Shown: positions 4,619 to 19,090 of the stretch, one piece after another | How positions within the stretch are numbered: position 1 is the first letter of the stretch | Layout: the number at the start of each line of letters is the position of its first letter | Assembly (NCBI GenBank): GCA_949383255.1 | Contig: CASJPF010000003.1 | Span: 62,001-126,000, forward strand | DNA: 64,000 nt | Reading direction: 5' to 3' | From: Lachnospiraceae bacterium | Lineage (GTDB): Bacteria; Bacillota; Clostridia; Lachnospirales; Lachnospiraceae | The notes under the pieces: generated by a model | Databases searched by the model: none | What the model saw: only the letters and a program-made list of their open reading frames with translations | What the model was told of the DNA's origin: nothing | Made by a program: the position numbers and the translations under genes

Positions 4619-4770
4619 TTCAAGCAATAGCGATTTTATATTGGCTTTTGTAAAATTCTAATTTATATTATGTGCCATATTTATTCATTGGAATTCGTAT
4701 TATGTATAGTTTTACAATGTGGAAAGATGTGATGTTTGGCGGTTTTGTATTATTTTTTATAAAGATATAA
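4615..4770 (+). pseudogene. Possible remnant of a small membrane protein gene
   Basis: An ATG at 4615 overlaps the TGA of the preceding gene. It reads 12 codons (MIQAIAILYWLL) to a TAA, after which the same frame continues with hydrophobic sequence (YYVPYLFIGIRI) to a TAA at 4768-4770. The arrangement suggests a translationally coupled gene that has been truncated and broken. I do not recognise the family, and chance cannot be excluded in such AT-rich DNA. Confidence 0.25.
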
Positions 4771-5159
4771 GGACAATCTATATACTTATTATGTTGTTTC
4801 TAAATTTGTAAAAACATATACTTTTTCGGTGCATCATATACGCAGTAAAGATTTCAATATAATGTATCTCTTTTATAGCTTGTAGTAATTTATAGCTATA
4901 GGATAACATTATTATTGAAGTCTTTTTATTTTAACTGGGTAAACTGGCTAAGCTAATAATAAAAGCAAGTCGAAAAGAATTTTGACATATCAAAAAAACC
5001 AAATTGTTTTCTATGAAAATAATCTATTCTTTTCTAATGGTTTTTATAATTACTATTAGCTATTTTAAATAGAAAAGAAAACAGGACTATTTAAAAGTGC
5101 ATTTGGGTAATATAAATAGATTCGTATTATTGTAAATTATTATTGAATATTATTTTTAT
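4771..5159. other. AT-rich intergenic region, no gene seen
   Basis: No supported reading frame is present on either strand. A roughly 10-bp inverted repeat (attcttttcta / tagaaaagaa) spans about 5025-5090 with a long loop. A TTGACA at about 4983 lacks a matching -10 box. The region separates the upstream operon from the recombinase cassette. Confidence 0.5.
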
Positions 5160-5190
5160 TTTCTCAGAATATAACCATCTGGGAAAAAAT
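5160..5190 (+). repeat. Left 31-bp inverted repeat, probable tyrosine recombinase core site
   Basis: The 31 bases from 5160 to 5190 are the exact reverse complement of 6650-6680. Within the repeat, two 9-bp arms (tttctcaga and tctgggaaa, 8 of 9 complementary) surround a 9-bp asymmetric centre (atataacca). This is the layout of a tyrosine recombinase core site. Inverted orientation of two such sites predicts inversion of the DNA between them. Confidence 0.8.
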
Positions 5191-5211
5191 TTTTATTACA
5201 TTTTTTTCTTT

Positions 5212-5229
5212 TTGATTAATTAGTATAAT
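5212..5229 (+). promoter_or_regulatory. Candidate promoter for the recombinase
   Basis: A perfect TATAAT lies at 5224-5229, preceded by TAG. No good -35 box is placed at 17 bp, so this is a weak call. It lies inside the inverted-repeat segment and would turn over with it. Confidence 0.35.
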
Positions 5230-5291
5230 TTTACCATAAATTTTTTAATACTGCAACCTTTTAAGATAAAAGATCACTTAGCATTTTTAAC

Positions 5292-5337
5292 AAAATTTAT
5301 GAAAAGCTCTAAAAATACGCAAAAAAATTTATGAAAA
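5292..5337 (+). repeat. Two 14-bp direct repeats upstream of the recombinase
   Basis: The 14-mer aaaatttatgaaaa occurs at 5292-5305 and again at 5324-5337, 32 bp apart, about three helical turns. A 9-mer atggtcaaa is repeated at 5389-5397 and 5401-5409. These could be binding sites for the recombinase or a regulator of it; AT-richness makes chance possible. Confidence 0.4.
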
Positions 5338-5450
5338 AGGGTAGTCAATTTAAAAATTTAGACCGAAAATTAAATAATTATAATATATATGGTCAAATTC
5401 ATGGTCAAAAAATAAAGATATTAGAAAACACGAAAGAGAAGGAGAAAATA

Positions 5451-6620
5451 ATGGGAAGACACGGAGAAAATATCAGGAAACGCAAAGATGGGAGATGGGA
5501 AGCTCGCTACATGGTATATGATACCCAGAAAGGAAAAAAAATTGGAAAATCCGTATATGGGCATACTTATGATGAAGTAAAAAGGAAACGTGCTAACATC
5601 ATATATCTGCTAAAAAATTCGTCTAAAAAAACAGACTCAAATGCAGAAAAGCAAGAAAAGAACTCATTGAAAGACGTTTTATTTAAAACAGTTGCTGAAC
5701 AATGGTTAGTTACAACAAAGGCAGATGACAACTTAAAGCCATCAACCCTTGAAAAATATAGTGTAATTTATCACACTCATCTTAAAGAGGTATTTGGTGA
5801 AACAAGCTTGGATACATTGACAGAATCTTTTGTAAAAGAAAAGATTTCAAACCACCTAGCTACAGTTATGCTGGCATGTAATACGCAAAAAGGAATTTAT
5901 TGTGTATTAAATCAGATTTTGAAATATGCTTCTACGCGTTATCCTATTATACTACCTTCTATAAAAAGACCATCTTTTAATAAGTATCAGAAACCAGTGA
6001 AAATATTTACAGAAGCAGAACAATCAAAGTTGCTTATAGCACTTTATTATCAAACTGATATTTTTAAGATGGCAATGTTGTTGTGTATGTTTGCAGGTTT
6101 GCGTATAGGAGAAACTTGTTCTCTAAAATGGTCAGATATTGATTCGGATAATAAAATACTTACCATAAAAAGAACAGTGCAGCGGTTATATGTAGAGGGC
6201 TTCAAAACAAAAACTGCATTGGTGGAGACTGTACCTAAAAGTATCCATTCTATGCGTGAAATTCCTTTGCCAAATTCTATTATAAAGTTACTCTTAGATT
6301 TTCAAAATGATAAAGAATATATATTTGGCGGTGATAAGCCACTTGACCCCAAAACAATGAGAAATCATTACAAGAAAATTCTTAAAGAAGTAGGCATTAC
6401 TTATAAAACTTTTCATACATTGCGTCATACTTATGCCACAAATTGCGTTGAAGGTGGTGTAGATACAAAATCTTTATGCGAATTGCTAGGACATTCTAGT
6501 GTCAAGATTACACTAAATTATTATATGCATCCATCAATTGATACCAAACGCAGATATGTTGATAAACTATATGATTTTTATGAAAAAATTCGTGGTCAGA
6601 ATGAGGGTAAAGCAAGTTAG
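5451..6620 (+). CDS. Tyrosine recombinase (phage integrase/XerC-D family)
   Basis: The ATG at 5451 is chosen because AAGGAG lies 6 bp upstream; an earlier in-frame ATG at 5331 lacks a good site and adds residues not typical of the family. The 389-residue product has an N-terminal AP2-like DNA-binding segment (KRKDGRWEARY), a SAM-like core-binding domain (about 85-180) and a catalytic domain with R218 (GLRIGE), H322 and R325 (HTLRH), H348 (LGHSS) and nucleophile Y357. All expected catalytic residues are present, so it should be active. It lies wholly between the 31-bp inverted repeats, which suggests that it inverts its own gene rather than integrating a phage. No excisionase or phage gene is nearby. 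Confidence 0.93.
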   Translation: MGRHGENIRKRKDGRWEARYMVYDTQKGKKIGKSVYGHTYDEVKRKRANIIYLLKNSSKKTDSNAEKQEKNSLKDVLFKTVAEQWLVTTKADDNLKPSTLEKYSVIYHTHLKEVFGETSLDTLTESFVKEKISNHLATVMLACNTQKGIYCVLNQILKYASTRYPIILPSIKRPSFNKYQKPVKIFTEAEQSKLLIALYYQTDIFKMAMLLCMFAGLRIGETCSLKWSDIDSDNKILTIKRTVQRLYVEGFKTKTALVETVPKSIHSMREIPLPNSIIKLLLDFQNDKEYIFGGDKPLDPKTMRNHYKKILKEVGITYKTFHTLRHTYATNCVEGGVDTKSLCELLGHSSVKITLNYYMHPSIDTKRRYVDKLYDFYEKIRGQNEGKAS

Positions 6621-6649
6621 TTTTTTTAATAATTTCTGGAATTTTAATT

Positions 6650-6680
6650 ATTTTTTCCCAGATGGTTATATTCTGAGAAA
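6650..6680 (-). repeat. Right 31-bp inverted repeat, probable tyrosine recombinase core site
   Basis: This is the perfect inverted copy of 5160-5190, starting 29 bp after the recombinase stop codon and 70 bp before the next gene. It has the same two 9-bp arms and 9-bp centre. Recombination with the left copy would invert a segment of about 1.5 kb carrying the recombinase and its promoter. Confidence 0.8.
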
Positions 6681-6750
6681 TTTTATTATATCAAACTCAT
6701 AAAACAGTATATCAACAATAAAAATAAAAGAGTGTAAAAGGAAGTAAGGA

Positions 6751-8139
6751 ATGCCTAAAAAGGGAACAAGGGCGAAACTGTTGGTCAGTGATGACAAAAA
6801 AGTATGTAAAGCCATACATCAGTATAGCAAGGGGAAAATCAGCAGTGAAAATATGGATGTACTCATGGAAATAAGACATGGGTGTATGGTGACAAAAAAT
6901 TATATATATCAAAGATATGGAGGTATTAAAAGCCTTGAAAAGTTATATCCTGGCTATGTTATAGAAGCAGAGGTAAGGGAAGCAGGATTTCGAGAAAAAA
7001 TAGGGCTTCCAAGTGTGTATTTTTCCGCAGCTATGGATAGAGCACTAGGAGATATTAGAATTATGTGGGCACAAGTGAAAAGTGGAATTAATGATGCAGC
7101 CAGCAAAAATGAAAGATTTTCACCGGAAGATAGGCATTATATTCGTTTTGCAATTAAAGTAAGCGGATGCTTTGAAAATATACTAAATGGAAAACCAGTG
7201 TCAGTGCCAAAGGAGATGCAGCCTAGATATAATAAAATTTTAATGGAACTTGGTGAGGAAAGCGAGCAGCGTGTCAGAGATCTCAATAGATTTGTATGTA
7301 GACAAGCTAGAAAGAGATTACGCAAGCAACATACAGATAATGAAACATATTTTGCCGTAAAAATGAAAGGGTACAAATATGGGGAGTTAGACGGAAAACA
7401 TGGAATATTTCTTACGACAAAAGTGAGCAGGAAAAGAATGTTTATACCACTGACTGACACAAACGTATATGACAGGACGCTCGACATAAAATTAAACACA
7501 CAAAAGAGAAGCATAGAAATAATTGTACCACTTTTTGTAAATGTAAAACAACATGAAGACTATACAAATGAAATAGGTATTTCACTTGGTTTGTGGAATA
7601 TGATTACGACAAGCACTGGAAATGTATACGGAAGTGAATTTGGAAAAATGCAAAATGAAATTTCCATGTATGTACTGAAGGAAATGAGTCAAAACGGAAA
7701 AGTAAAAACATCTGATACAAAAAAATATATAGCACATAAGGCAAAAATGGATGCAGCACTTAAAAACTATGTGAATATGGAGATAAATAGAATGCTAGGA
7801 AATGAAAAAACCAAAGTAGTTTATATGGCAAAGCTTCCACGTAATCCCGGTATGTCTATGAAAGGGACAGGTGATACTTATTTCCTTAGAATGTGGAAGA
7901 AGGGGTTTGTGACTGAAAGGATACAGTGGAAATGTCGAGAGAACGATATCAGACTTATAGAAGTGGTTGGAAAGGGAATTGGTACAGATTGTAGTGTTTG
8001 TGGGCAGAAGGGGTATATCGAAGATGAAAACTTTAAATGTCCAGTCTGTGGTTTTAATGAAAATAAAAAGGTAAATGGAGCAAGAAATGCTCTGAATAGA
8101 GGGAAAACAGGAAAACAACTTAACAAGAAATTGCCATAG
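6751..8139 (+). CDS. Nuclease-dead TnpB-like protein (IS200/IS605 OrfB family; TldR-like)
   Basis: The 462-residue product has a good ribosome site (aaggaagtaagga) before the ATG. The C-terminal half follows TnpB: a RuvC-I strand (EIGISLGLWNM), the RuvC-II region (KVVYMAKLPRN), a four-cysteine zinc ribbon (C414, C417, C430, C433) and the end motif VNGARNALNRG. At RuvC-I the catalytic Asp is Ser278; at RuvC-II residues 358-361 (YMAK) hold no acid; at RuvC-III the Asp is Lys440. All three catalytic acids are therefore missing, yet the frame is full-length. Known nuclease-dead TnpB relatives (TldR) are RNA-guided transcription repressors; that role here is inference. No TnpA is present. It probably shares transcripts with the recombinase in the present orientation, as no strong promoter is seen at 6681-6750. 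Confidence 0.85.
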   Translation: MPKKGTRAKLLVSDDKKVCKAIHQYSKGKISSENMDVLMEIRHGCMVTKNYIYQRYGGIKSLEKLYPGYVIEAEVREAGFREKIGLPSVYFSAAMDRALGDIRIMWAQVKSGINDAASKNERFSPEDRHYIRFAIKVSGCFENILNGKPVSVPKEMQPRYNKILMELGEESEQRVRDLNRFVCRQARKRLRKQHTDNETYFAVKMKGYKYGELDGKHGIFLTTKVSRKRMFIPLTDTNVYDRTLDIKLNTQKRSIEIIVPLFVNVKQHEDYTNEIGISLGLWNMITTSTGNVYGSEFGKMQNEISMYVLKEMSQNGKVKTSDTKKYIAHKAKMDAALKNYVNMEINRMLGNEKTKVVYMAKLPRNPGMSMKGTGDTYFLRMWKKGFVTERIQWKCRENDIRLIEVVGKGIGTDCSVCGQKGYIEDENFKCPVCGFNENKKVNGARNALNRGKTGKQLNKKLP

Positions 8140-8472
8140 AACAAATACAAGGAGATTACACAAAAAAATAAATGGTCAAACGATACATCTGGAAGATAAA
8201 CCGATTGGAAAGTCTGGTTTTACTGCAAGTAGATTTGCGTTAGCAAAAACAATGCAGACTGTGGCAGATGGTATCTTGATATAAAAAATTAAAAGGCATT
8301 GGGGATATACAAAAACAGGTATGCCTGTGTCTTGTGAACTTAGATTTTCAATAGATAAAATTAAGAGTAGCAGGACACGAAGCTGAATCAATTGATTTGG
8401 TACCACTTTGAAAGGTGGCTGTGGTTCCCTATTTATCCACTGCATAGCGCATAGCGCTCAAATGCTGTGCGC
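8140..8472 (+). ncRNA. Candidate guide-RNA region downstream of the dead TnpB
   Basis: TnpB guide RNAs arise from the 3' end of the gene and the DNA behind it. This non-coding stretch has a hairpin at 8403-8418 (ccac...gtgg, UGAA loop) with an alternative outer pairing of 8399-8406 to 8421-8428, and a second hairpin at 8447-8472 (gcgcatagc / gctgtgcgc, 8-nt loop). If the scaffold ends after 8428, the guide would begin near 8430. The upstream part shows fragments of broken reading frames (for example MPVSCELRFSIDK from 8321, continuing one frame away as LRVAGHEAESID), which suggests decayed coding DNA. RNA ends cannot be seen from sequence. Confidence 0.3.
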
Positions 8473-8520
8473 GGATATTGCAGGAATGATTTATTAGGAA
8501 GTTAAGAGCATGTAGAAAGG

Positions 8521-8532
8521 TAACAATTGTTA
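8521..8532. promoter_or_regulatory. 12-bp perfect palindrome upstream of the long glycan cluster
   Basis: The palindrome taacaattgtta lies 36 bp before the chosen start of the first cluster gene. It could be an operator, but no clear promoter was recognised around it. Confidence 0.3.
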
Positions 8533-8568
8533 TTAGATGATAGAAGAATCCGTAGAGGGGAAGAGCTT

Positions 8569-11094
8569 ATGAGGAAATCGCAGAAGAAAGAAATACTTGA
8601 TATTTTAAATAGTCTGCAAAAGGCTCATGAAGAAATAAGACAAGCACTGACAGGGCAAAATCATATGCTTGCTCAAAATATGCTTACGCAATGCCAGACA
8701 GCAGCAGTATCTCTTGGAGAGACAATTGAGAGATTGGAAGGTGAGGGACATATTACAGTGTCCTTTTTTGAAGAATACTGCGAACTGCTGTTTAAAATTT
8801 ATGAGGATATCAATAAGGGAAATATAAATAAAAACAAAGATTATAAGATGTTGCGCAAGCAACTTGTAAAAATAGAGAACAGTATAAAGAATGATATTGT
8901 TGTAAAAAAAGAGATTGTATTTTTTCCTTATAAAGCGTCTATGTGGGACAGCTTAGAGAGTATTTATTTTGCGGTAAAGGCAGATCTGGACTGCAATGCA
9001 TATTGTGTTCCAATTCCTTATTACGATTTGTGTCCAGATCATAGTCTTGGTCAGATGCATTATGAGGGATATAACTATCCAAAAAATATAGAGATTATCG
9101 ACTGGCAAAAATATGATTTTGAGAATAGAAAACCAGATATTATCTACATACACAATCCTTATGACGACTGGAATCTCGTCACAAGTATTCATCCAAGATT
9201 TTATTCGGCAAACCTTAAAAAATATACAGACTGTCTTGTATATGTACCATATTATAGCACAACAGGCGGCATGAGTGAGGGACAAAGGACGCTTCCTGTA
9301 TATTTTAATGCGGATTACATTGTGACACAGGCACCAATGTTTCGAGATTACTTTGACGAAAGAATACCTAACAAGAAGTTTCTGCCGTTTGGTAGCCCTA
9401 AGTTTGACAGAATTATTAATAAATGTAAGAATCCGCCAGAACCACCGGCAGAGTGGAAAAAGAAAATGGAAGGACGAAAGGTATATTTCTATAATACTAG
9501 TATTGGTGGAATGCTTGATAACACAGAAAATTTTTTAAAGAAAATGCAATATGTATTTTCTTGTTTTAAGGATAGAAGAGATGTCTGCTTATTATGGCGG
9601 CCGCATCCATTGTTAGAATCGACATTTGATTCTATACGCCCACAGTATAAGAAAAGATATGAAAGTTTAAAAAGTGAATTTGTATCATGGAATTTTGGAA
9701 TACTTGATGAGACTTCCGATATTGCAAATGCAATTGCATTAAGTGACATATATATTGGTGATGGAGGGACATCCGTTACCTCACTTTTCGGATTAGTCGG
9801 AAAGCCAATATTTATATTGAACAATCACCTACATAGTGAGCCAAAGGAAGATAGCTGGAGAGGGGAAATCTATCTAAATATAAACCCTTTTGAACAGGAT
9901 CAATGGCTTATCACACAGGGAAATAGGCTTTATAAGTCAGAACCGTTTGCTTATGATTATAAGTATTGTTTTGACTTGTCTAATTATATTGGTCCATATT
10001 ACTCAATTATTTTGGAGATAAATGGAAAAAAATATGCTTGTCCAGGAGATGCACAACATATCCTTGTACTTGGAGAAAACGGAATTGAAAAAAGAATAGA
10101 ATTAGAAAAGAAAACTGCAAAGAACGGTGCATTTTGTACAGCATATAAATATAAAAAATATTTGCTCCTTATTCCTTTTAACTATCCTGCTTTGGTATTG
10201 TATGATACCCAAACCGAAAAAATTATATATTTGCCAGAACACATTGATATTTTCATAAGAAAAGATGAAAAAGGTCAAACAATTATAGGTGGTGTATGGA
10301 TTTATAAAGATTTCCTTTATATAGCTTCTCCAACAGACAATTATGTATATAAATTAGATATAGAGAGTGAAATTTCACAGATATTAGAAATTCCGGTGGA
10401 AGGTTGGCAGGGATGCGCGATACTAATGGAATATGAAGGGGATTTTTGGTTGATGCCATACAAGGGAAAAGTGGTTCTTAGATGGAATATTGACAGGAAT
10501 GAAATAAAAGAATACACAGATTTTCCAGAAGACTATAAATGTGTAAATAAATTGTATGGATATGAATGTGATGAATTACCATTTGGTACACCTGCATTTT
10601 ACAAAAATAAAGTTTACTTGCCTCCGCTTTTTGGGAATATGTATTTGAAATTGAATATGGATACAGGAAAAATAACAAAATGGCAACCGTTATTTGAGGA
10701 AGGTGCAGGAGAAGAATATTACTACACAACTGTAAATGGATTTTTCCTTTGGCATACTCCACAACAAAAAAAAGGAAATTTGAAACTATATTCATATCCG
10801 AATCGTAAATTGTATGACATTAATCCTGAAACAGATGCGTGCAAAGAAATATCAGTCAAATTTGACCTTGATGAATTAAAGGCAAATGAACATGGATTTG
10901 GTGAATATTCTGAATGGATAGGGTATATATGCCTTGAAAATGCATTTAATTCTCTTACGAATTTTCTTGATGGAAAAATTAGAGGAAAAAAGTTTGATAG
11001 AGTAACACAGATAGCTACATATCAAAAGATAGCAGCAAATAATGATGGAAGCTGTGGGGAGAAAGTACATAAGTTTATAAAAGATCTTGTATAA
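8569..11094 (+). CDS. TagF/TagB-like GT-B transferase with C-terminal beta-propeller-like repeats
   Basis: The ATG at 8569 with AGAGGGGA upstream is preferred over the in-frame TTG at 8527. The product has about 842 residues. The N-terminal 100 residues are helical and charged. Residues about 115-460 resemble the CDP-glycerol glycerophosphotransferase fold: LLWRPHPLLES corresponds to the HP motif, and SDIYIGDGGTSVTSLFG to the ITDYSS region, with the DYSS changed to DGGTS. Residues about 490-820 contain repeated blades (IYKDFLYIASP, YEGDFWLMPYKGK, FYKNKVYLPPLFG) like a propeller or Kelch fold. It probably modifies or polymerises a polyol-phosphate chain; the altered motif leaves its activity open. 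It opens the long rightward gene cluster. Confidence 0.7.
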   Translation: MRKSQKKEILDILNSLQKAHEEIRQALTGQNHMLAQNMLTQCQTAAVSLGETIERLEGEGHITVSFFEEYCELLFKIYEDINKGNINKNKDYKMLRKQLVKIENSIKNDIVVKKEIVFFPYKASMWDSLESIYFAVKADLDCNAYCVPIPYYDLCPDHSLGQMHYEGYNYPKNIEIIDWQKYDFENRKPDIIYIHNPYDDWNLVTSIHPRFYSANLKKYTDCLVYVPYYSTTGGMSEGQRTLPVYFNADYIVTQAPMFRDYFDERIPNKKFLPFGSPKFDRIINKCKNPPEPPAEWKKKMEGRKVYFYNTSIGGMLDNTENFLKKMQYVFSCFKDRRDVCLLWRPHPLLESTFDSIRPQYKKRYESLKSEFVSWNFGILDETSDIANAIALSDIYIGDGGTSVTSLFGLVGKPIFILNNHLHSEPKEDSWRGEIYLNINPFEQDQWLITQGNRLYKSEPFAYDYKYCFDLSNYIGPYYSIILEINGKKYACPGDAQHILVLGENGIEKRIELEKKTAKNGAFCTAYKYKKYLLLIPFNYPALVLYDTQTEKIIYLPEHIDIFIRKDEKGQTIIGGVWIYKDFLYIASPTDNYVYKLDIESEISQILEIPVEGWQGCAILMEYEGDFWLMPYKGKVVLRWNIDRNEIKEYTDFPEDYKCVNKLYGYECDELPFGTPAFYKNKVYLPPLFGNMYLKLNMDTGKITKWQPLFEEGAGEEYYYTTVNGFFLWHTPQQKKGNLKLYSYPNRKLYDINPETDACKEISVKFDLDELKANEHGFGEYSEWIGYICLENAFNSLTNFLDGKIRGKKFDRVTQIATYQKIAANNDGSCGEKVHKFIKDLV

Positions 11095-11164: not shown

Positions 11165-12514
11165 ATGGGAGACGGGATGATAAAGGTAATAACATATGGG
11201 ACGTTTGATCTGTTACATGAGGGGCATTATAGGTTGTTACAGCGTGCAAAGCAGCTTGGTGATTATCTGATTGTTGGGGTGACCTCAGAAGAATATGACC
11301 AAGCAAGGGGAAAACTTAACGTGATGGATTCCTTGATGACACGAATTGAGAATGTCAAAAAGACTGGTTTTGCAGATGAAATTATTGTTGAAGAGTCACA
11401 AGGTCAGAAGTTTCAGGATATTCAGAAATATGGGATTGATATTTTTACAGTGGGTTCTGACTGGATAGGGCAGTTTGATTATTTAAAGGACTACTGCAAG
11501 GTAGTGTATCTCGATAGAACAAAAAATATATCAAGTACAATGCTGCGCACTAAAAGAACTTCGATACAGAGAATAGGAATTATAGGAACAGGGCGTATAG
11601 CAAATCGTTTCATACCAGAAGCAATGCTTGTAAGCGGAGTAAATACACAAAGTGTGTATAATCCACATATTGAAAATGCACAATTATTTGCAAACAAGTG
11701 GGAAATTGATGCATATGAAGATCTGGAAGAATTTTATAATTCATTAGATATTGTATACATAGCATCACCACATGAAACACACTACAAGTATATAAAACAG
11801 GCATTAGAACACAAAAAACATGTTTTATGCGAGAAACCGATGTGTCTTTCAAAAGTGCAATCAGAAGAAGTGTTTAAACTTGCGATGGAGAAGGATCTAG
11901 TTTTATTTGAGGGTATTAAGACAGCATATTGTCCGGGATTTATAAAGTTGCTTGGAATTGCATGTGGCGGGATAATAGGAAATATTAAGGATGTAGAAGC
12001 CTGTTTTACAAAATTGGAAGATGACAATAACAGGGAATTAAAAGACAAAAAATATGGTGGAAGCTTTACAGAACTTGGAAGCTATTGTCTACTCCCAATT
12101 TTGAAAATATATGGTCATGATTATGAGGACATAAGGTTTGAGACAATCTGTGATGCCAATGGAATAGATATTTATACGAAGGTTTATCTGCGTTATCCAA
12201 ATGGTCTTGCTACTGCAAAATGCGGACTTGGCGTAAAATCGGAAGGAAAGCTTTTGATATCAGGGACAAGAGGTTATATCACAACAGAGGCACCGTGGTG
12301 GAAGACAAGTTACTTTGAAATACACCGAGAAAGACCAGATGATGTGGAACGCTTTTCGGAACGGTTTCTTGGAGATGGGCTTAGATATGAAATAAGTGAC
12401 CTATTGTCTATGATTAATGGAGATAAAAAAAAGGATTTTAAACTGACAAGAGGCGACAGTGTTGCTATGGCAGGGATTATGGAGGCATTTTTGAAGTCGC
12501 AGGGAAGGATTTAA
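11165..12514 (+). CDS. Bifunctional glycerol-3-phosphate cytidylyltransferase (TagD-like)-Gfo/Idh/MocA oxidoreductase
   Basis: Residues 1 to about 130 match TagD: GTFDLLHEGH holds the HxGH nucleotidyltransferase motif, with SSTMLRTKR at the end; this half should make a CDP-polyol from CTP. Residues about 137-449 are a Gfo/Idh/MocA dehydrogenase with an NAD(P) loop (GIIGTGRIA) and the CEKP motif. A fused cytidylyltransferase and dehydrogenase suggests that polyol formation and activation are coupled. ATG 11165 (AGGA 6 bp upstream) and ATG 11177 (GGAG 5 bp upstream) are both plausible; the second matches the usual TagD start. The next gene starts 3 bp after the stop. Confidence 0.85.
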   Translation: MGDGMIKVITYGTFDLLHEGHYRLLQRAKQLGDYLIVGVTSEEYDQARGKLNVMDSLMTRIENVKKTGFADEIIVEESQGQKFQDIQKYGIDIFTVGSDWIGQFDYLKDYCKVVYLDRTKNISSTMLRTKRTSIQRIGIIGTGRIANRFIPEAMLVSGVNTQSVYNPHIENAQLFANKWEIDAYEDLEEFYNSLDIVYIASPHETHYKYIKQALEHKKHVLCEKPMCLSKVQSEEVFKLAMEKDLVLFEGIKTAYCPGFIKLLGIACGGIIGNIKDVEACFTKLEDDNNRELKDKKYGGSFTELGSYCLLPILKIYGHDYEDIRFETICDANGIDIYTKVYLRYPNGLATAKCGLGVKSEGKLLISGTRGYITTEAPWWKTSYFEIHRERPDDVERFSERFLGDGLRYEISDLLSMINGDKKKDFKLTRGDSVAMAGIMEAFLKSQGRI

Positions 12515-12517
12515 GAC

Positions 12518-13246
12518 ATGAAAATATGGGCACATAGAGGATGCAGTCAGATGTATCCTGAAAATACGTTACTTGCGTTTGAAAAAGCAATAGAGATACA
12601 AGGACTTACAGGAATTGAGCTTGATGTTCAGCTTACAAAAGATGGAGAACTTGTGGTAATCCATGATGAGCGAGTGGATAGGACTACGAAAAGTATAGGG
12701 TATGTAAGGGACTATACATTGAAGGAATTGAAAAAGCTTGATATATATGCAGGAGAAAATAAGATACAACATATTCCAACAATGAAGGAAGTGGTTGATC
12801 TAATGGAACCAAATTTGAAATTGGGAATGAAATTAAATATTGAGCTGAAAAACAGTATTTATCCATATCATAGTATGGAGGAGAAAATTATAGAATTTGT
12901 ACATAAACGAGGCATCGAGAATTTTGTAGTATATTCGACATTTTATGCGAAATCTTTGGAAAAATTAAAAGAATTAGATTCACAGGCAGAACTTGCGATA
13001 CTTGACAGTAAAGTGTCAGATTGTCTATACAAGTTAAGAGGCGGATGCGGCGCTGTGGCAGTTCATCCGTTTTTATATGGAATTGATGTATTATTGGAAG
13101 AGTTGAAGGGATATAGAGTGAGAGCATGGATGGGAGGACATCTCTATCCAGAAAAACCAACTGGAACGAGACTTGATTTGGGTAAGCTGGAGAATCAGGG
13201 GATTACAGATATATTTTTAAATGAGCCTGAGAGATATTTAATATAA
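12518..13246 (+). CDS. Glycerophosphodiester phosphodiesterase family protein
   Basis: The 242-residue protein has the GDPD signature: AHRG near the N-terminus, ENTLLAFEKA, IELDVQLTKDGELVVIHDE and the later lysine-containing strand (LNIELKN). It has no signal peptide, so it should act in the cytoplasm. The family hydrolyses glycerophosphodiesters to glycerol-3-phosphate and an alcohol. Lying directly behind the TagD-like gene, it may recycle glycerol-3-phosphate for CDP-glycerol or trim polymer precursors. Confidence 0.88.
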   Translation: MKIWAHRGCSQMYPENTLLAFEKAIEIQGLTGIELDVQLTKDGELVVIHDERVDRTTKSIGYVRDYTLKELKKLDIYAGENKIQHIPTMKEVVDLMEPNLKLGMKLNIELKNSIYPYHSMEEKIIEFVHKRGIENFVVYSTFYAKSLEKLKELDSQAELAILDSKVSDCLYKLRGGCGAVAVHPFLYGIDVLLEELKGYRVRAWMGGHLYPEKPTGTRLDLGKLENQGITDIFLNEPERYLI

Positions 13247-13386
13247 TTCAGAGGCGATGAAAGTGACTATTGAGATTAAATAAAAGGAAATATAAAAAGA
13301 GAGTTGAGTACGACTATTTGGTTTGGAGGAAGACAAGTATATTTTTGAATTATATTAATAAAAAGTTTATTATAAAGGTAAAAAAT

Positions 13387-14442
13387 ATGACAGAATATTA
13401 TGAAAATAACTTATATAAAACAGAAATTAAAGAAATTGTGAATTATAGTTTACTTGATATATTAAAAGACAAAGTATTTGTTATTGCAGGTGCAAGAGGA
13501 ATGATTTGCAGTGAACTGATTGATACAATTATGTATGCTAATTTGAATTATGGATTAAATTGTAAAATTTATGGTATAGTCAGAAATATGCAGGCAGCTG
13601 AATATAGATTTAAAGCATATAAAAAAAGTATATATTTTCAGCTTGTACAGGCGGATATAAACAAAGATGTGATTAATATTGACAAAGATGTCGATTTTTT
13701 TATACAAGGGGCTAGTAATACACATCCAGTTTATTATTCGATATATCCGATAGATACAATATTAACCAATACTGTTGGGACAAATCGTATGTTGGAATTT
13801 GCTTCAAAACATAGATGCAAAAGATTTTTATTTTTATCTTCTGTTGAGGTGTATGGTGAAAATAGAGGGGATATAGATAAATTTACGGAAGGTTATTTGG
13901 GATATTTGAATTGTAATACACTTAGGGCTGGCTACTCGGAAGCGAAAAGATTAGGAGAAGCGCTTTGTCAGGCATATATAGCTGAAAAGGGATTAGACTG
14001 TGTAATACCAAGAATAGCAAGAGCTTATGGAGCGGGTCTTTTAAAGGAGGATTCTAAAGCACTATCGCAATTTATTCATAATGCATTAAAAGGTGAAGAT
14101 ATTGTATTAAAAAGTAAAGGGGACCAGTTTTATTCTTATGTTTATATTGCGGATATTGTAAGTGCGCTTTTGTTTCTTATTGCAAATGGAAAAACAGGAG
14201 AAGCTTATAATTTATCAGGTATCGAATCGGATATTACACTTGCAAAGTTGGCAGACTATATTGCCAACTTTGTTGGGACAAGAGTAGTATATGATATTCC
14301 TAGTGAACAAGAGGCAGCAGGTTATTCAAAAGCGACGAAGGCTATCTTGGATACTAAGAAAATAGAAAATCTTGGATGGCATTCGCGTTATTCGATCAGA
14401 GAAGGAATAAAACGGACATTGCAAATACAAGGGATTAATTGA
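13387..14442 (+). CDS. NAD-dependent epimerase/dehydratase (SDR) of the glycan cluster
   Basis: The frame is open from a TTG at 13270, but the ATG at 13387 with AAAGG upstream gives a normal SDR length (351 residues). The NAD loop is VIAGARGMICSEL and the catalytic pair is YSEAK; FLSSVEVYGE is the usual strand before it. The substrate is unknown. Its place just before the TarI/IspD-like gene and the LicD gene suggests it reduces or epimerises a sugar phosphate or nucleotide sugar used for CDP-activated residues. Confidence 0.8.
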   Translation: MTEYYENNLYKTEIKEIVNYSLLDILKDKVFVIAGARGMICSELIDTIMYANLNYGLNCKIYGIVRNMQAAEYRFKAYKKSIYFQLVQADINKDVINIDKDVDFFIQGASNTHPVYYSIYPIDTILTNTVGTNRMLEFASKHRCKRFLFLSSVEVYGENRGDIDKFTEGYLGYLNCNTLRAGYSEAKRLGEALCQAYIAEKGLDCVIPRIARAYGAGLLKEDSKALSQFIHNALKGEDIVLKSKGDQFYSYVYIADIVSALLFLIANGKTGEAYNLSGIESDITLAKLADYIANFVGTRVVYDIPSEQEAAGYSKATKAILDTKKIENLGWHSRYSIREGIKRTLQIQGIN

Positions 14443-14452
14443 GGAGTCGCTG

Positions 14453-15154
14453 ATGAATACAGCAATTGTGATAGCCGCAGGCGTAGGACGTAGAACAGGT
14501 CAATGTATACCAAAACAGTTCATTAATGTATTAGATAAGCCTATTATTGTATACACATTAGAAAAGTTTCAAAATTCAAAAAATATAGACAATATTGAAG
14601 TTGTTTGTTTAAGTGGGTGGGAAGAAGTTTTAAAGGTGTATGCTATGCAATATGGTATTGCAAAACTAAAGTGGATTGTTTCAGGTGGAAATAGCAGTCA
14701 AGAATCGATTTACATAGGGTTGAAGAATTTGGGAAGCATTTGTAAAAAAAAGGACATTGTAGTAATTCACGATGGAATCAGGCCAATGGTTGATGAGGAG
14801 ATTATTGATTCCTGTATAGATATATGCCAAAAATACGGAAATGGAATTACCGCACTTCCAGTTTATGAACAAGTTTTTAAGACATATGATGAGGTTTCAT
14901 CAAGGGAGTATATTCCAAGAGATCGTTTGAAAATTTTACAGACTCCGCAAGCCTATAAATATCAAGAAATAAGGACAGCGTATGATGAAGCATTCGCTAA
15001 AAAAATAGGCGTTCATATATCATCATATGCAAATACAATGATGACAGAATTGGGAAAAACACTTTATTTTTCTAAAGGTTCGACTAAAAATATCAAGATT
15101 ACAACAAAAGATGATATAAAAATATTTAAAGCAATGTTGAGGGCAGAACAATGA
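14453..15154 (+). CDS. IspD/TarI-type cytidylyltransferase
   Basis: The 233-residue protein has the family start IAAGVGRRTGQCIPKQF, the central HDGIRPM and the PRDRLKILQTPQ segment. IspD makes CDP-methylerythritol in isoprenoid synthesis and TarI makes CDP-ribitol for teichoic acid. The glycan context, the neighbouring LicD gene and the lack of an adjacent TarJ dehydrogenase point to a CDP-polyol role, possibly with an unusual polyol because a DXS-like gene lies 2 kb downstream. It overlaps the LicD start by 4 bp (ATGA). Confidence 0.85.
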   Translation: MNTAIVIAAGVGRRTGQCIPKQFINVLDKPIIVYTLEKFQNSKNIDNIEVVCLSGWEEVLKVYAMQYGIAKLKWIVSGGNSSQESIYIGLKNLGSICKKKDIVVIHDGIRPMVDEEIIDSCIDICQKYGNGITALPVYEQVFKTYDEVSSREYIPRDRLKILQTPQAYKYQEIRTAYDEAFAKKIGVHISSYANTMMTELGKTLYFSKGSTKNIKITTKDDIKIFKAMLRAEQ

Positions 15155-15966
15155 TTGAATTAGATCAAGAGACGCTTCGTAAACTCCAAATGACAGAATT
15201 GGAAATGTTGAAAGAGGTTGATAGAATATGTAAAAAATATAATATTAAATATTCTCTTGATGGTGGTACACTGTTGGGGGCAATACGACATAAAGGATTT
15301 ATACCTTGGGATGATGATGCAGATATCGTAATGTTAAGATCTGAATATATCAAATTTTACCAAGCGTGCAAAAAAGTATTAGATACTGATAAGTTTTTTT
15401 TACAGGATTTTAGAACAGATCCAAACTATCGTTGGGGATATTCTAAGTTACGTAGAAATGGGACCATCTTTTTGCGAGAAGGCCAAGAACATGGAAGATG
15501 GAACCAAGGTGTTTTTATAGATATTTTCGTGTATGACCAAGTACCAGATACATTTATTTTTCGCAGATTGCATTTGCTAATTTGTTTTTGCATTAGGAAA
15601 GGCTTGTATTCAGAAGTTGGAAAGAGAAATGCGGCGAATATATTAGTAAGAAAACTGTATCAAGTACTCAATATTGTTCCACGTGACAGATGGGTTAGGT
15701 AACTTGAAAAAATTGCAGAGATTACAAATAGGAAAAGAACAGAACTTGTTAGGCACATGACATATCCATATAGAAAAGAATGTCGATATGGATTGCCAAG
15801 AGAGTGTTTCGATTCATATATAGATAAGGAGTTTGAGGGACACAATTTCAGAGTATTTAAAAAATATGATCTCTATCTTTCACATTTGTATGGAGAGTAT
15901 ATGAAACTTCCGCCAGTAGAAAATAGGAAAGCACATTCCGTAAGTGAAATAAAACTAATTCATTAA
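15151..15966 (+). pseudogene. licD: LicD-family phosphotransferase gene interrupted by an in-frame stop
   Basis: Residues 1-183 are a typical LicD start (YSLDGGTLLGAIRHKGFIPW followed by DDDAD). The frame ends at TAA 15700-15702. The same frame then continues without further stops to 15966 (RTELVRHMTYPYRKECRYG and the usual LicD C-terminus), so a single codon change would restore a protein of about 271 residues. LicD proteins transfer phosphocholine or similar groups onto surface glycans from CDP-linked donors. Loss would remove such a decoration, unless the stop is read through or is a sequence error. Confidence 0.8.
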
Positions 15967-16114
15967 AGAAGCAGAGAAAAGGGAGGCAGCAGGAATTGAC
16001 TGAATATTCTATGAAATGATGACATAAATGTTGTATTTTTGTTGTATAAGATTGAATGTAGAGGATAAGAATTAATAGGGTTCTAAAAAAGGATTTTGCA
16101 GAATAGGAAAGGTT

Positions 16115-17317
16115 ATGTGGGATTTAGAAGAACGGATTGTAAAAGAAAAACAGCGATATTTAGATTTTGTCGAATTGAATAAGGGAAAACATATATATAT
16201 CTATGGAGCAGGGAAACAAGCAATTCCAATCGCTGATTTTTTCAAAGAAAATAATATTATAATAGATGGATTTTGTGTTACAGATCGATCAAGTAATAGA
16301 GGAAAGATTAATAAACTGCCTGTGTATCAAGTTGATGAGCTCCCATATCAGGATGCAGCATTTGTACTTGGAGTGCGCGTGCAATTAAACAATGAAATAG
16401 AAGCAATATTAAAGAACAATGGATATACAAATTATTTACTTGCATCAGATTTAGTACGATATTTAGGACCATATGGGTATAGTTTTTATATTAGTCCAAT
16501 GATTGAAATTACAACGAAGCTTGGGTGTGCGATAGATTGTAAATACTGCCCACAGGAATTATTTATTAGAGAATATTTAAAAGAAAAAAAATCGGATATG
16601 GTGTTATCTTTTGAAAATTATAAAATATGTATTGATAAATTGCCTGAGAATACATTTGTTGAGTTTGCTGGTTTTACGGAACCATTTTTTAACGCACAAT
16701 GCATGAAGATGATTCAATATGCAAAAGAAAAAGGACATCGAGTTAATTTATTTACAACGCTCAGGGGACTACGATTAGATCAAGTGGATGAACTGTTGAA
16801 AATAGATTTTGAAGAATTTGTATTGCATGTTCCAGATCAAGAAGGTTATGCCATTATTCCTGTGGATCAACAGTATAAAGAAATTGTCAAAAAACTAAGC
16901 AGGGCGAAAAAGAAAAATGGAAATAATTTTATTGACTATGCATGTGCTCAGGGAACAGTATTGAATGAAGTAGGAGAAATTCTGAAAAACAATATTAGGG
17001 TCTATGTAGTACTCAATAACCGGGCGGGTAATTTACAAGATAAGTGTCTGTATGGAAGAAAAGATATACAAGGTAGATTAAGATGTGAGCTTTCAAGAGA
17101 TATTAATCATAATGTGTTATTGCCGGATGGGCGTGTAATTTTGTGCTCAAATGATTGGGGAATGAAGCATGTTATGGGTAATCTGATATATGAAAGTTAT
17201 GAGCAGATTTTAAACGGAGAGGAAGCGCAAAAAATAAGGAAATCAATGAGTAATGAGTGTCAGGATTTTGTTTTGTGCAGAAACTGTTTTCAGGCAATAG
17301 AAGAAGGAGATCCCTAA
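16115..17317 (+). CDS. Radical SAM protein with N-terminal Rossmann module and C-terminal cysteine cluster
   Basis: Residues about 25-120 form the recurrent Rossmann module (IYIYGAGKQAIPIADFF). The radical SAM iron-sulfur motif is C138, C142, C145 (LGCAIDCKYC), and the C-terminal SPASM-like part (LLPDGRVILCSNDWG and FVLCRNCFQ) should hold a further cluster. The product would be cytoplasmic and redox-active; its substrate is unknown. The following DXS-like gene begins at the next base, so the two are tightly coupled and may act in one pathway. A 148-bp gap upstream holds no clear promoter. Confidence 0.8.
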   Translation: MWDLEERIVKEKQRYLDFVELNKGKHIYIYGAGKQAIPIADFFKENNIIIDGFCVTDRSSNRGKINKLPVYQVDELPYQDAAFVLGVRVQLNNEIEAILKNNGYTNYLLASDLVRYLGPYGYSFYISPMIEITTKLGCAIDCKYCPQELFIREYLKEKKSDMVLSFENYKICIDKLPENTFVEFAGFTEPFFNAQCMKMIQYAKEKGHRVNLFTTLRGLRLDQVDELLKIDFEEFVLHVPDQEGYAIIPVDQQYKEIVKKLSRAKKKNGNNFIDYACAQGTVLNEVGEILKNNIRVYVVLNNRAGNLQDKCLYGRKDIQGRLRCELSRDINHNVLLPDGRVILCSNDWGMKHVMGNLIYESYEQILNGEEAQKIRKSMSNECQDFVLCRNCFQAIEEGDP

Positions 17318-19090
17318 ATGTACATAGAAAGAATTGATAGCCTAATGGATTTAAAGAAATTAAATTTAGATCAATGTATGGTTCTGGCAGATGAAATACG
17401 AGAAGCGCTATTGAATACGATTAGTGTGACAGGAGGACATTTATCTTCAAATTTGGGGATTATTGAAGCGACAATTGCATTGCATTATGTATTTAATTCT
17501 CCTGAGGATAAGATTATATTTGATACGTCACATCAATGTTATACACATAAGATACTGACTGGAAGAAAAAATGCGTACTTAGAACCACAACAATATAAAA
17601 GATATTCGGGATATACAAATCCGGATGAAAGTGTGCACGATCATTTTAAGTTAGGGCATACTTCAACATCGATCAGTTTGGCATGTGGTTTGGCAAGGGC
17701 AAGGGATTTAAGAGGGGATAAGTCGAATGTGATAGCAGTTATAGGGGATGGTTCACTGAGTGGGGGAGAAGCGCTTGAAGGGTTAAACTACGGAGGGGCA
17801 GAAATAAAAGGTAATCTTATTATTTTGATCAATGATAATCAAATGTCTATTGCGGAAAATTATGGAGGAATATATAAAAATATAAAAACATTACGTGAAA
17901 CAAAGGGGAAAACAGATAATAATTTGTTTAAACTGTTAGGATACGATTATAGATATGTGGAAAATGGAAATGATATTCGGGAATTAGTGCCTGTATTGCA
18001 GGAAATTAAAAATATTAATCATCCAATTATTATTCATGTATGTACCATGAAGGGAAAGGGATATGATATAGCTGAAAATAATAAGGAAGAGACCCATTTT
18101 GTAAAACCATTTGATTTAAAGATTGGGGATATACAGAAACCAGTTATAGGCGAGAGATATGATGTGATTATTAGAGAATTCCTAATTAAAAAAATAAGAG
18201 CAGATAGAAATATTGTAATTATGACAGCAGCTATGCCAGTTGTTTTAGCGCTATCAAAAGATGTAAGGGAATCTATAGGGGAACAATACATAGATGTAGG
18301 CATTGCAGAAGAACACGCAATATCAATGGCTGGAGGAATAGCAAAAAGTGGTGGAAAACCAATATTTTTTACTAGGGCAACATTTTATCAAAGAACATAC
18401 GATCAAATATCACAGGATATTTGCATCAATAATCTCCCAATAACAATGATATTGATAAATGCATCTATATATGCTGCTACAGATATGACGCATATAGGGA
18501 TTTTCGATATTGCAATGATGGCTAATATTCCAAATCTCGTAATGTTGGCACCAACTAATAAACAAGAATATTTAGCAATGCTTAATTGGAGTATTGAACA
18601 GAATAAACATCCCGTGGCAATCAGAGCACCAAGAAATGGAGTGTATTATGCAAACTATGAAGTTGATACAGACTATGATAAGCTAAACAAATTTAAATTG
18701 GTTATTCAGGGAGAAGATATTGCGGTTATAGCATTAGGAGATTTTTATCAATTAGGGGAAGAGGTCATCAAATTAATGAAAGATAAGATTCATATTAATG
18801 CAAGTTTGATTAATCCAAGATATGCGACCGGAATTGATGAGACATTATTGAAACGAATTTCTGAAGACCACGATATCGTGATTACTTTGGAGGATGGTAT
18901 ATTGGACGGTGGATTTGGACAGAAGATTTCTGCATTTTACGGAAATTCAGATATAAGAGTATTAAATTATGGATTCAAAAAGGAATTTACGGACTGCTAT
19001 CTGGTGGATGAAATTTTAAGGAAAAATAGACTACAACCAGAAATGATAGTAGAGGATATTATTTCCTTAAAAGAGAAGATAAGTGTATAA
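17318..19090 (+). CDS. DXS-like thiamine-diphosphate transketolase, divergent paralogue
   Basis: The 590-residue protein aligns with 1-deoxy-D-xylulose-5-phosphate synthase along its length: DTSHQCYTHKILTGR, the thiamine motif GDGSLSGGEALEG...N, the VGIAEEHA glutamate and TFYQRTYDQ. However, the family-defining stretch DRAGxVGxDGxTHxG reads INASIYAATDMTHIG (residues 380-394): H392 is kept, but the Asp four residues before it is Thr388 and the Arg is lost. It is therefore probably not the housekeeping Dxs but an enzyme with another acyl donor or acceptor, serving the glycan. It lies directly behind a radical SAM gene and is overlapped by the next GT2 frame. Confidence 0.8.
   Translation: MYIERIDSLMDLKKLNLDQCMVLADEIREALLNTISVTGGHLSSNLGIIEATIALHYVFNSPEDKIIFDTSHQCYTHKILTGRKNAYLEPQQYKRYSGYTNPDESVHDHFKLGHTSTSISLACGLARARDLRGDKSNVIAVIGDGSLSGGEALEGLNYGGAEIKGNLIILINDNQMSIAENYGGIYKNIKTLRETKGKTDNNLFKLLGYDYRYVENGNDIRELVPVLQEIKNINHPIIIHVCTMKGKGYDIAENNKEETHFVKPFDLKIGDIQKPVIGERYDVIIREFLIKKIRADRNIVIMTAAMPVVLALSKDVRESIGEQYIDVGIAEEHAISMAGGIAKSGGKPIFFTRATFYQRTYDQISQDICINNLPITMILINASIYAATDMTHIGIFDIAMMANIPNLVMLAPTNKQEYLAMLNWSIEQNKHPVAIRAPRNGVYYANYEVDTDYDKLNKFKLVIQGEDIAVIALGDFYQLGEEVIKLMKDKIHINASLINPRYATGIDETLLKRISEDHDIVITLEDGILDGGFGQKISAFYGNSDIRVLNYGFKKEFTDCYLVDEILRKNRLQPEMIVEDIISLKEKISV

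Follow-up and report, generated by a model that had tools for sequence, protein, structure and literature searches.

A nuclease-dead TnpB-like protein between an invertible segment and a polysaccharide operon in Lachnospiraceae, a candidate RNA-guided repressor

In the Hin/FljBA phase variation of Salmonella, an invertible segment carrying a recombinase and an outward promoter drives an antigen together with a repressor of the alternative antigen. The locus described here would work by the same logic; the repressor of that system, FljA, is not known to be RNA-guided or related.

Nuclease-dead TnpB proteins acting as RNA-guided repressors (TldRs) come close to it in another way. The CsrA-associated TldRs of Oscillibacter and Flavonifractor are reported to have guides within fliC reading frames, predicted cross-targeting among the four loci of a single genome, and hin and inversions upstream (PMC13418256). 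We liken the present family to them by features and not by descent (PMC13418256): in both cases a chromosomal nuclease-dead TnpB has an adjacent guide RNA, the guides point into the reading frames of surface-antigen genes that are paralogues of one another, a genome can have several loci with predicted cross-targeting, and an invertase gene and DNA inversions are found upstream. The two differ in that flagellin is the target there and a gene of a polysaccharide operon here, that the csrA partner has no counterpart that we noticed here, and that the present loci more often have a tyrosine recombinase, its gene being inside the segment, in hosts which are Lachnospiraceae (PMC13418256). With respect to the CsrA-associated proteins the target class, the operon and the tyrosine recombinase would be new, as would the evidence, in group 2 of our family (see below), of self-avoidance in codons and flank. 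The FliC-associated TldR of Enterobacter prophages resembles our case in that the locus encodes both a substitute surface antigen and an RNA-guided repressor acting on the resident antigen; however, it is prophage-borne and aimed at a promoter, whereas here the operons are of chromosomal type and the site is a coding one (PMC13418256). Finally, ISDra2 TnpB and AsCas12f are active nucleases, whereas all three acids are missing here. In a literature search whose coverage excludes most subscription journals, we found neither a Lachnospiraceae case of an RNA-guided transcription factor joined to promoter inversion nor a published description of a dead TnpB in the context of a polysaccharide operon and an inverton.

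A TnpB-like protein without its RuvC acids

The window, that is, the whole 64,000-nucleotide stretch of DNA that was analysed, contains the following gene:

6751..8139, + strand: nuclease-dead TnpB-like protein of 462 aa (open reading frame, profile matches and alignment)

The frame is uninterrupted by stops. Its product matches the NCBIfam profile guided_TnpB at E 9.6e-15 over residues 187-450 (54.7 bits, below the 100-bit cut-off) and the Pfam profile Cas12f1-like_TNB at E 3.7e-9, and the TnpB/Cas12f fold spans residues 16-459. The preliminary description had presented it as a full-length TnpB which lost all three RuvC acids while keeping its zinc ribbon, and both statements hold. When the protein is aligned with its intact relatives (seven rows, two of them identical), the RuvC-I Asp of GIDKG, GIDLG or GLDAG corresponds to S278, the RuvC-II Glu of MENL, YEDL or MEDL to A360 and the RuvC-III Asp to K440, so that the D/E/D of active TnpB is absent; the CxxC...CxxC of the zinc ribbon is kept. 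The acids might have been shifted rather than lost; in this alignment they are missing, and we saw no shifted acids able to restore the site.

Homologues were found in 9 of the 299 Lachnospiraceae-family genomes of a first draw, in at least 18 of the 397 of a second, overlapping draw (profile search), in 28 of the 38 genomes of the window's genus, and at 7 loci in named Lachnospiraceae MAGs, one of which is nearly identical to the window. They split into group 1, which includes the window, and group 2. Among full-length aligned members (pieces were not judged), the residues replacing the three acids are S/A, A/P/V and K/R in group 1, and H/Y, T/P and A/S/P in group 2. An intact relative (L125, genome G617), which reads GIDKG, MENL and SDTN, was the sole relative besides the window in a profile search of 291 genomes of the class; six further intact rows come from the phylum. 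We built a tree of 55 rows, near-copies included, with a midpoint root: a branch supported 100/97 separates the 48 dead rows, which fall together, from the 7 intact rows, two of which were flagged for long branches, and the two dead sets (33 and 15 rows) are each supported 100/99.

The homologues, which could have turned out to be riddled with stop codons, are open and constrained: dN/dS is 0.06-0.18 in 11 of 12 pairs, the twelfth being saturated and several having dS > 1. Some copies are broken, one by a TGA (L031, G196) and another into pieces (given as L013 and as L033; G283:C75), and despite these the dN/dS values and the open frames rule out a pseudogene. Since full-length homologues lack the same acids and are under purifying selection, the loss reflects neither chance nor decay. 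A single inactivation of the RuvC site followed by purifying selection would be the simplest account. We also rejected a mobile phage or plasmid gene: a pattern scan, sensitive to close relatives only, found no relative on viral contigs, and no plasmid or phage match covered 80%.

A structured RNA, its guide and the gene c1

Downstream of the dead tnpB gene, we recognised an RNA and an operon:

8170..8438, + strand: structured guide-RNA-like transcript, scaffold and guide (conservation, fold z and group-2 covariation; 5' end uncertain)
8295..8299, + strand: 5' strand of helix A, GGCAT, partner 8321-8325 (ATGCC); the same helix was counted in group 2
8315..8318, + strand: pseudoknot strand ACAG, partner 8419-8422 (CTGT), by eye; the pseudoknot was counted in group 2 alone
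8425..8438, + strand: putative 14-nt guide TTCCCTATTTATCC, placed after the pseudoknot as in group 2; target tentative
8569..11094, + strand: c1, first gene of the polysaccharide operon, without Pfam family; its paralogues bear the guide target sites
9154..9167, + strand: group-2 target site in the window's own c1, atacac followed by AATCCTTATGACGA, mismatched
9244..9255, + strand: group-1 candidate target site (V-P-Y-Y codons) in the window's own c1
11165..19090, + strand: operon genes after c1 (cytidylyltransferase-oxidoreductase, GDPD, epimerase by eye, IspD-like, LicD, radical SAM/SPASM, DXP-synthase-like)

A conserved block 3' of the stop codon is recognisable in 54 of the 55 loci (the exception is L025), its 3' end having been recognised by pattern in 51 and by hand in 3 (L029, L103, L116). 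The fold z is -3.8 for window positions 8100-8520. We counted covariation in 22 of the 23 group-2 cores (L124 left out): 97.7% of the 440 cells are paired, 11 of the 20 pairs are changed on both sides, and there are 56 compensatory cells where shuffles give 16.8. The signal is lost when the strands are slid, although the structure, having been written by hand from the same alignment, is favoured over these slid controls. In the pseudoknot, the four bases before the TA of the ATGCC/ACGCC strand pair with four bases near the 3' end (group-2 column: GC 11, CG 5, UA 5, AU 1). In group 1a we read the pseudoknot by eye: the window pairs ACAG with CTGT, and L022 and L096 pair TTAG with CTAA. The intact relative L125 shows a similar frame with the pair CTGG/CCAG, and this kinship between the RNAs is likewise an observation by eye only. 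Rfam gave nothing in window positions 4600-8800 at E up to 1, and tRNAs only in five loci at gathering scores. The dead gene thus has, like TldRs, an adjacent guide-RNA-like transcript with a conserved scaffold, the covariation coming from group 2.

Further elements lie near this RNA. Behind the guide, a hairpin of group 1a at window positions 8439-8487 keeps both arms in L016 and L018-L020 (by eye), and L017 and L021 have an extra hairpin inserted ahead of it. Several of L105, L108, L112, L114 and L123 share, by eye, a second leader element (AAAACGAAA-like arm ... TTTCGTTTAAAAGAA) between guide and c1.

Within the available stretch, c1 lies downstream of the dead tnpB in 41 of the 55 loci and is the first gene in 35, which amounts to the stable link with a non-transposon gene that is expected of TldRs. 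The first two further genes per locus, taken from 50 loci, make 96 genes with 17 CTP_transf_like, 17 GFO_IDH_MocA and 14 GDPD domains, the rest including sugar-nucleotide and glycosyltransferase domains. From these domains, together with LicD and IspD-like, we read the clusters as surface-polysaccharide clusters, probably with glycerol-phosphate parts. In the window, the IspD-like, LicD, radical SAM/SPASM and DXP-synthase-like genes occupy positions 14453-19090 of the operon. The c1 family has forms of ~450 and ~850 aa sharing one N-terminal part (MRKAQK...). At L104 and L120 c1 is upstream, not downstream, of the dead tnpB, and at L120 the inverton is upstream too. Paralogues of c1 occur in all 30 genomes tested, and 25 of these have a c1 without dead tnpB within 2.6 kb upstream, which we call unlinked; the scaffold motif was found upstream of 0 of 26 unlinked c1.

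A first placement of the guide, in the variable nucleotides after the conserved end, was 9-14 nt too far downstream by our later reading and was abandoned. Its 12-mers were not enriched among the loci, and it gave no convincing target in G429/G430, G000/G403 or G397: a 13-nt match in G000, the window's genome, lay within a reverse-transcriptase-like gene (named by eye), and G429 and G430 gave a 12-nt match, RBS-like and orthologous, ahead of a gene that by eye resembles glgA.

In group 2, the putative guide is the 14 nt which follow the pseudoknot and two spacer bases, AATCCTTATGATAA with variants, and it matches the N-P-Y-D codons of c1, in frame. It was placed after the matches had been seen; the whole-genome search, the c1 paralogue data and the full-site counts then added unseen data. 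Across six whole genomes the 14-mer AATCCWTATGATAA has 19 matches. By their coordinates, 10 of these are the loci's own RNAs; a further 8 lie in c1, at the same codons, and 1 in an unrelated gene. The backwards control has 1 match. Of the eight c1 matches, five reproduce a resident guide exactly and the other three depart from it at the W base; among the eight is L117's own c1. Among 982 c1 positions (c1 below 350 bits left out, identical c1 collapsed), NPYD is the best-matching site for group-2 guides. The unlinked c1 beats the own c1 for 17 of the 18 group-2 guides, out of 23, that could be paired (two-sided p 1.4e-4; 16 of 18 without L214, which has no upstream sequence; no pair for L106, L113, L115, L118 and L124).

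The flank is kept as well: ATACAT stands before the best unlinked site of all but one of the 21 guides (14 of 15 distinct sites). Among the unlinked c1 of group-2 genomes, 13 of 19 carry the full site (ATACAT followed by AAT[CG]CNTATGATAA); among own-linked c1 it is 1 of 20, and among the unlinked c1 of other genomes 2 of 14 (Fisher p 4e-5 and 0.004, respectively), "other" meaning that group 2 is absent among the candidates listed and L236 having been called group 2 by hand. These counts become 13/20, 1/22 and 2/13 when G424, which carries group 2, is reassigned by hand. Four of the 19 are unlinked in a weaker sense, with less than 1 kb of upstream sequence (L214, L235) or with c1 just before the dead tnpB (L104, L120); once they are dropped, the full site is found in 12 of 15. 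As the loci are related, all these p-values overstate independence. It counts against self-avoidance that the guide of L117 matches its own c1 14/14, with the flank atacac there. The guide of L102, in G414, fits two genes 14/14, namely the unlinked c1 and the c1 of a group-1 operon (L099). For group 2, then, the guide matches a host gene related to its partner gene, as TldR guides do.

For group-1 guides against unlinked c1, the best of the 982 positions is the VPYY site, ~90 nt after the group-2 site, with 8.4/12 (z 4.9, 9 pairs) in group 1a and 7.8/12 (z 5.2, 17 pairs) in group 1b. No self-avoidance was seen in group 1b, where the own c1 gives 8.0/12. The guide of the window matches the unlinked c1 of its genome weakly, at 8/12, equal to its own c1 (this unlinked c1, the same as that of G403, was restored by hand for the comparison), and has no second match with fewer than 2 mismatches within the 64-kb window. 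Because the own c1 match equally well in group 1b and in the window, we hold VPYY as a tentative group-1 target, by extension from group 2.

Control by leader systems is common in polysaccharide operons, and the conserved block stops 10-115 nt short of the next same-strand gene in 27 of the 46 loci measured. The RNA might therefore be the 5' UTR of the operon, whose nascent transcript would be bound by the dead TnpB, which would control the elongation or translation of its own operon with no guide acting in trans. We consider this unlikely. Terminator-like sites between the stop codon and the next gene occur in 2 of the 55 loci only, both overlapping the scaffold, on which count we rejected an attenuator in the leader; moreover, a leader acting in cis explains neither why the 14 nt prefer the unlinked to the own c1 (17/18) nor why the site is retained in unlinked c1.

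The target site is conserved in codons, and therefore part of the guide match is expected. Pushed further, this would mean that AT-rich 14-mers match conserved NPYD/VPYY codons by chance and that the true target is elsewhere or absent. The group-1 matches of about 8/12 only go in this direction, as do a permutation of genome labels, which gives p 0.038 for the guide-c1 match, and the four guides with GC for CC that have an unlinked c1, of which two (L108, L123) face an Ala codon and two (L105, L122) a Pro codon. However, 8 of the 9 non-self matches genome-wide are in c1, against 1 match for the backwards control, and synonymous positions and flank are kept in unlinked c1 of group-2 genomes (13/19) and not elsewhere (2/14), which makes chance a quite improbable account.

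The invertible segment

Upstream of the dead tnpB, the window has the following features:

5160..5195, + strand: left inverted repeat of 36 nt, dyad TTTCTCAGA-N10-TCTGGGAAA, 94% complementary to 6645-6680
6645..6680, - strand: right inverted repeat of the invertible segment, pairing with the left one (shuffle and window controls)
5331..6620, + strand: tyrosine recombinase within the segment (Phage_integrase 2.3e-26; true start perhaps 5451)
5228..5256, - strand: promoter-like TTGCAG-17-TAAAAT directed away from the dead tnpB (by eye, below the scan threshold)

Ahead of the inverton, a single 865-aa frame (window positions 2021-4618) combines PMT_2-like and Acyl_transf_3; these are two frames in L015.

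Inverted repeats with a score of at least 16 were found upstream in 28 of the 51 loci tested (four with less than 600 nt upstream were excluded); 255 shuffles gave none, and 127 same-locus windows gave 3, two of these three being from L116. A long frame of recombinase size is present in 15 of the 27 scanned segments. The segment with its recombinase is reversed in L029, L090, L091 and L120 relative to the other loci; at L120 the reversed segment precedes c1, further upstream. The contig of L116 (G397:C23) contains both orientations joined by N, and at about 6376-9241 it forms a 2.9-kb near-perfect palindrome of the inverton around the N, the assembly having retained both orientations. This means that inverted repeats and both orientations are found across related loci, the scaffold of L116 being nearest to a one-strain case. 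The recombinase and the glycan cluster, which the preliminary description had pointed out as neighbours, would together make the context a phase-variable polysaccharide operon.

In 11 of 12 recombinase-forward segments, a promoter-like match lies 83-129 nt inside one end and points outward, away from the dead tnpB. The remaining segment is that of the window, whose match at 5256-5228 (minus strand) is also directed away. In the reversed segments of L029, L090 and L091, the match lies 75-175 nt from the near end and is directed at the dead tnpB. The scan across relatives was run without shuffled control and lists weaker or competing matches too, and the window has about as many promoter-like matches as chance would give (24 against 20.6). 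If the match at 5228..5256 is the promoter of the operon, the window assembly may represent the OFF state.

In 28 of the 55 loci, the 3.5 kb upstream contain a recombinase cluster gene (one member per cluster was scanned), and the dead TnpB could accordingly be an accessory of its neighbour, for instance a directionality or architectural factor for inversion. This is very unlikely, as the partner belongs to the tyrosine cluster in 20 loci and to the unrelated serine (Resolvase) cluster in 8, and 27 loci have neither, yet all loci but one have a recognisable RNA (54 of 55). Defence against mobile DNA by binding alone, in the manner of CRISPR-Cas12m, which is reported to act through binding (PMC11013384), would suit a dead effector with a Cas12/TnpB fold, but with a single guide per locus and a group-2 guide matching host c1 we give it hardly any credit.

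Proposed mechanism and meaning for the family

We propose, with a probability of about 0.7, that the protein is a TldR-like RNA-guided repressor of competing polysaccharide operons under inverton control. A TnpB ancestor would have lost its RuvC site once and become an RNA-guided DNA-binding repressor. A site-specific recombinase would flip the upstream segment so that the outward promoter faces the dead tnpB, and this inversion would switch the unit made of dead tnpB, guide RNA and polysaccharide operon on or off. In the ON state, the unit would yield the repressor, the guide RNA and one polysaccharide. The protein would bind the pseudoknotted RNA encoded 3' of its own gene, and the ~14-nt guide directly after the pseudoknot would bring it to a short site in the coding part of c1 of the other polysaccharide operons of the same genome, where the RNP would block the RNA polymerase. 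The own c1 would be spared through mismatches and a different 5' flank.

The preliminary description had already suggested a domesticated protein of the TldR type. The loss of the acids and the purifying selection support this suggestion, and it is strengthened because the RNA scaffold covaries and because guides of the sister clade, group 2, match the partner gene. We find slightly better than even odds for a broader statement, namely that Lachnospiraceae have a phase-variable fleet of dead TnpB proteins effecting RNA-guided allelic exclusion of surface polysaccharides: an ON inverton would express one glycan operon together with an RNP silencing the default and the other phase-variable operons at the ~14-nt coding site, self and non-self being told apart by synonymous codons and by the 5' flank ATACAT. 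Both readings are somewhat weakened because the GC-for-CC change has its counterpart in c1 in two of four cases only and because no self-avoidance is seen in group 1b.

The system lends itself to testing, since the guide is short, the site is defined and the paralogues differ from it at few, mostly synonymous, positions. If our reading is true, RNA-guided transcription factors extend from flagellin to surface polysaccharide, RNA-guided repression is joined to promoter inversion in a large gut family, and a natural dCas12-like repression has been kept across a genus in which 28 of 38 genomes have a member.
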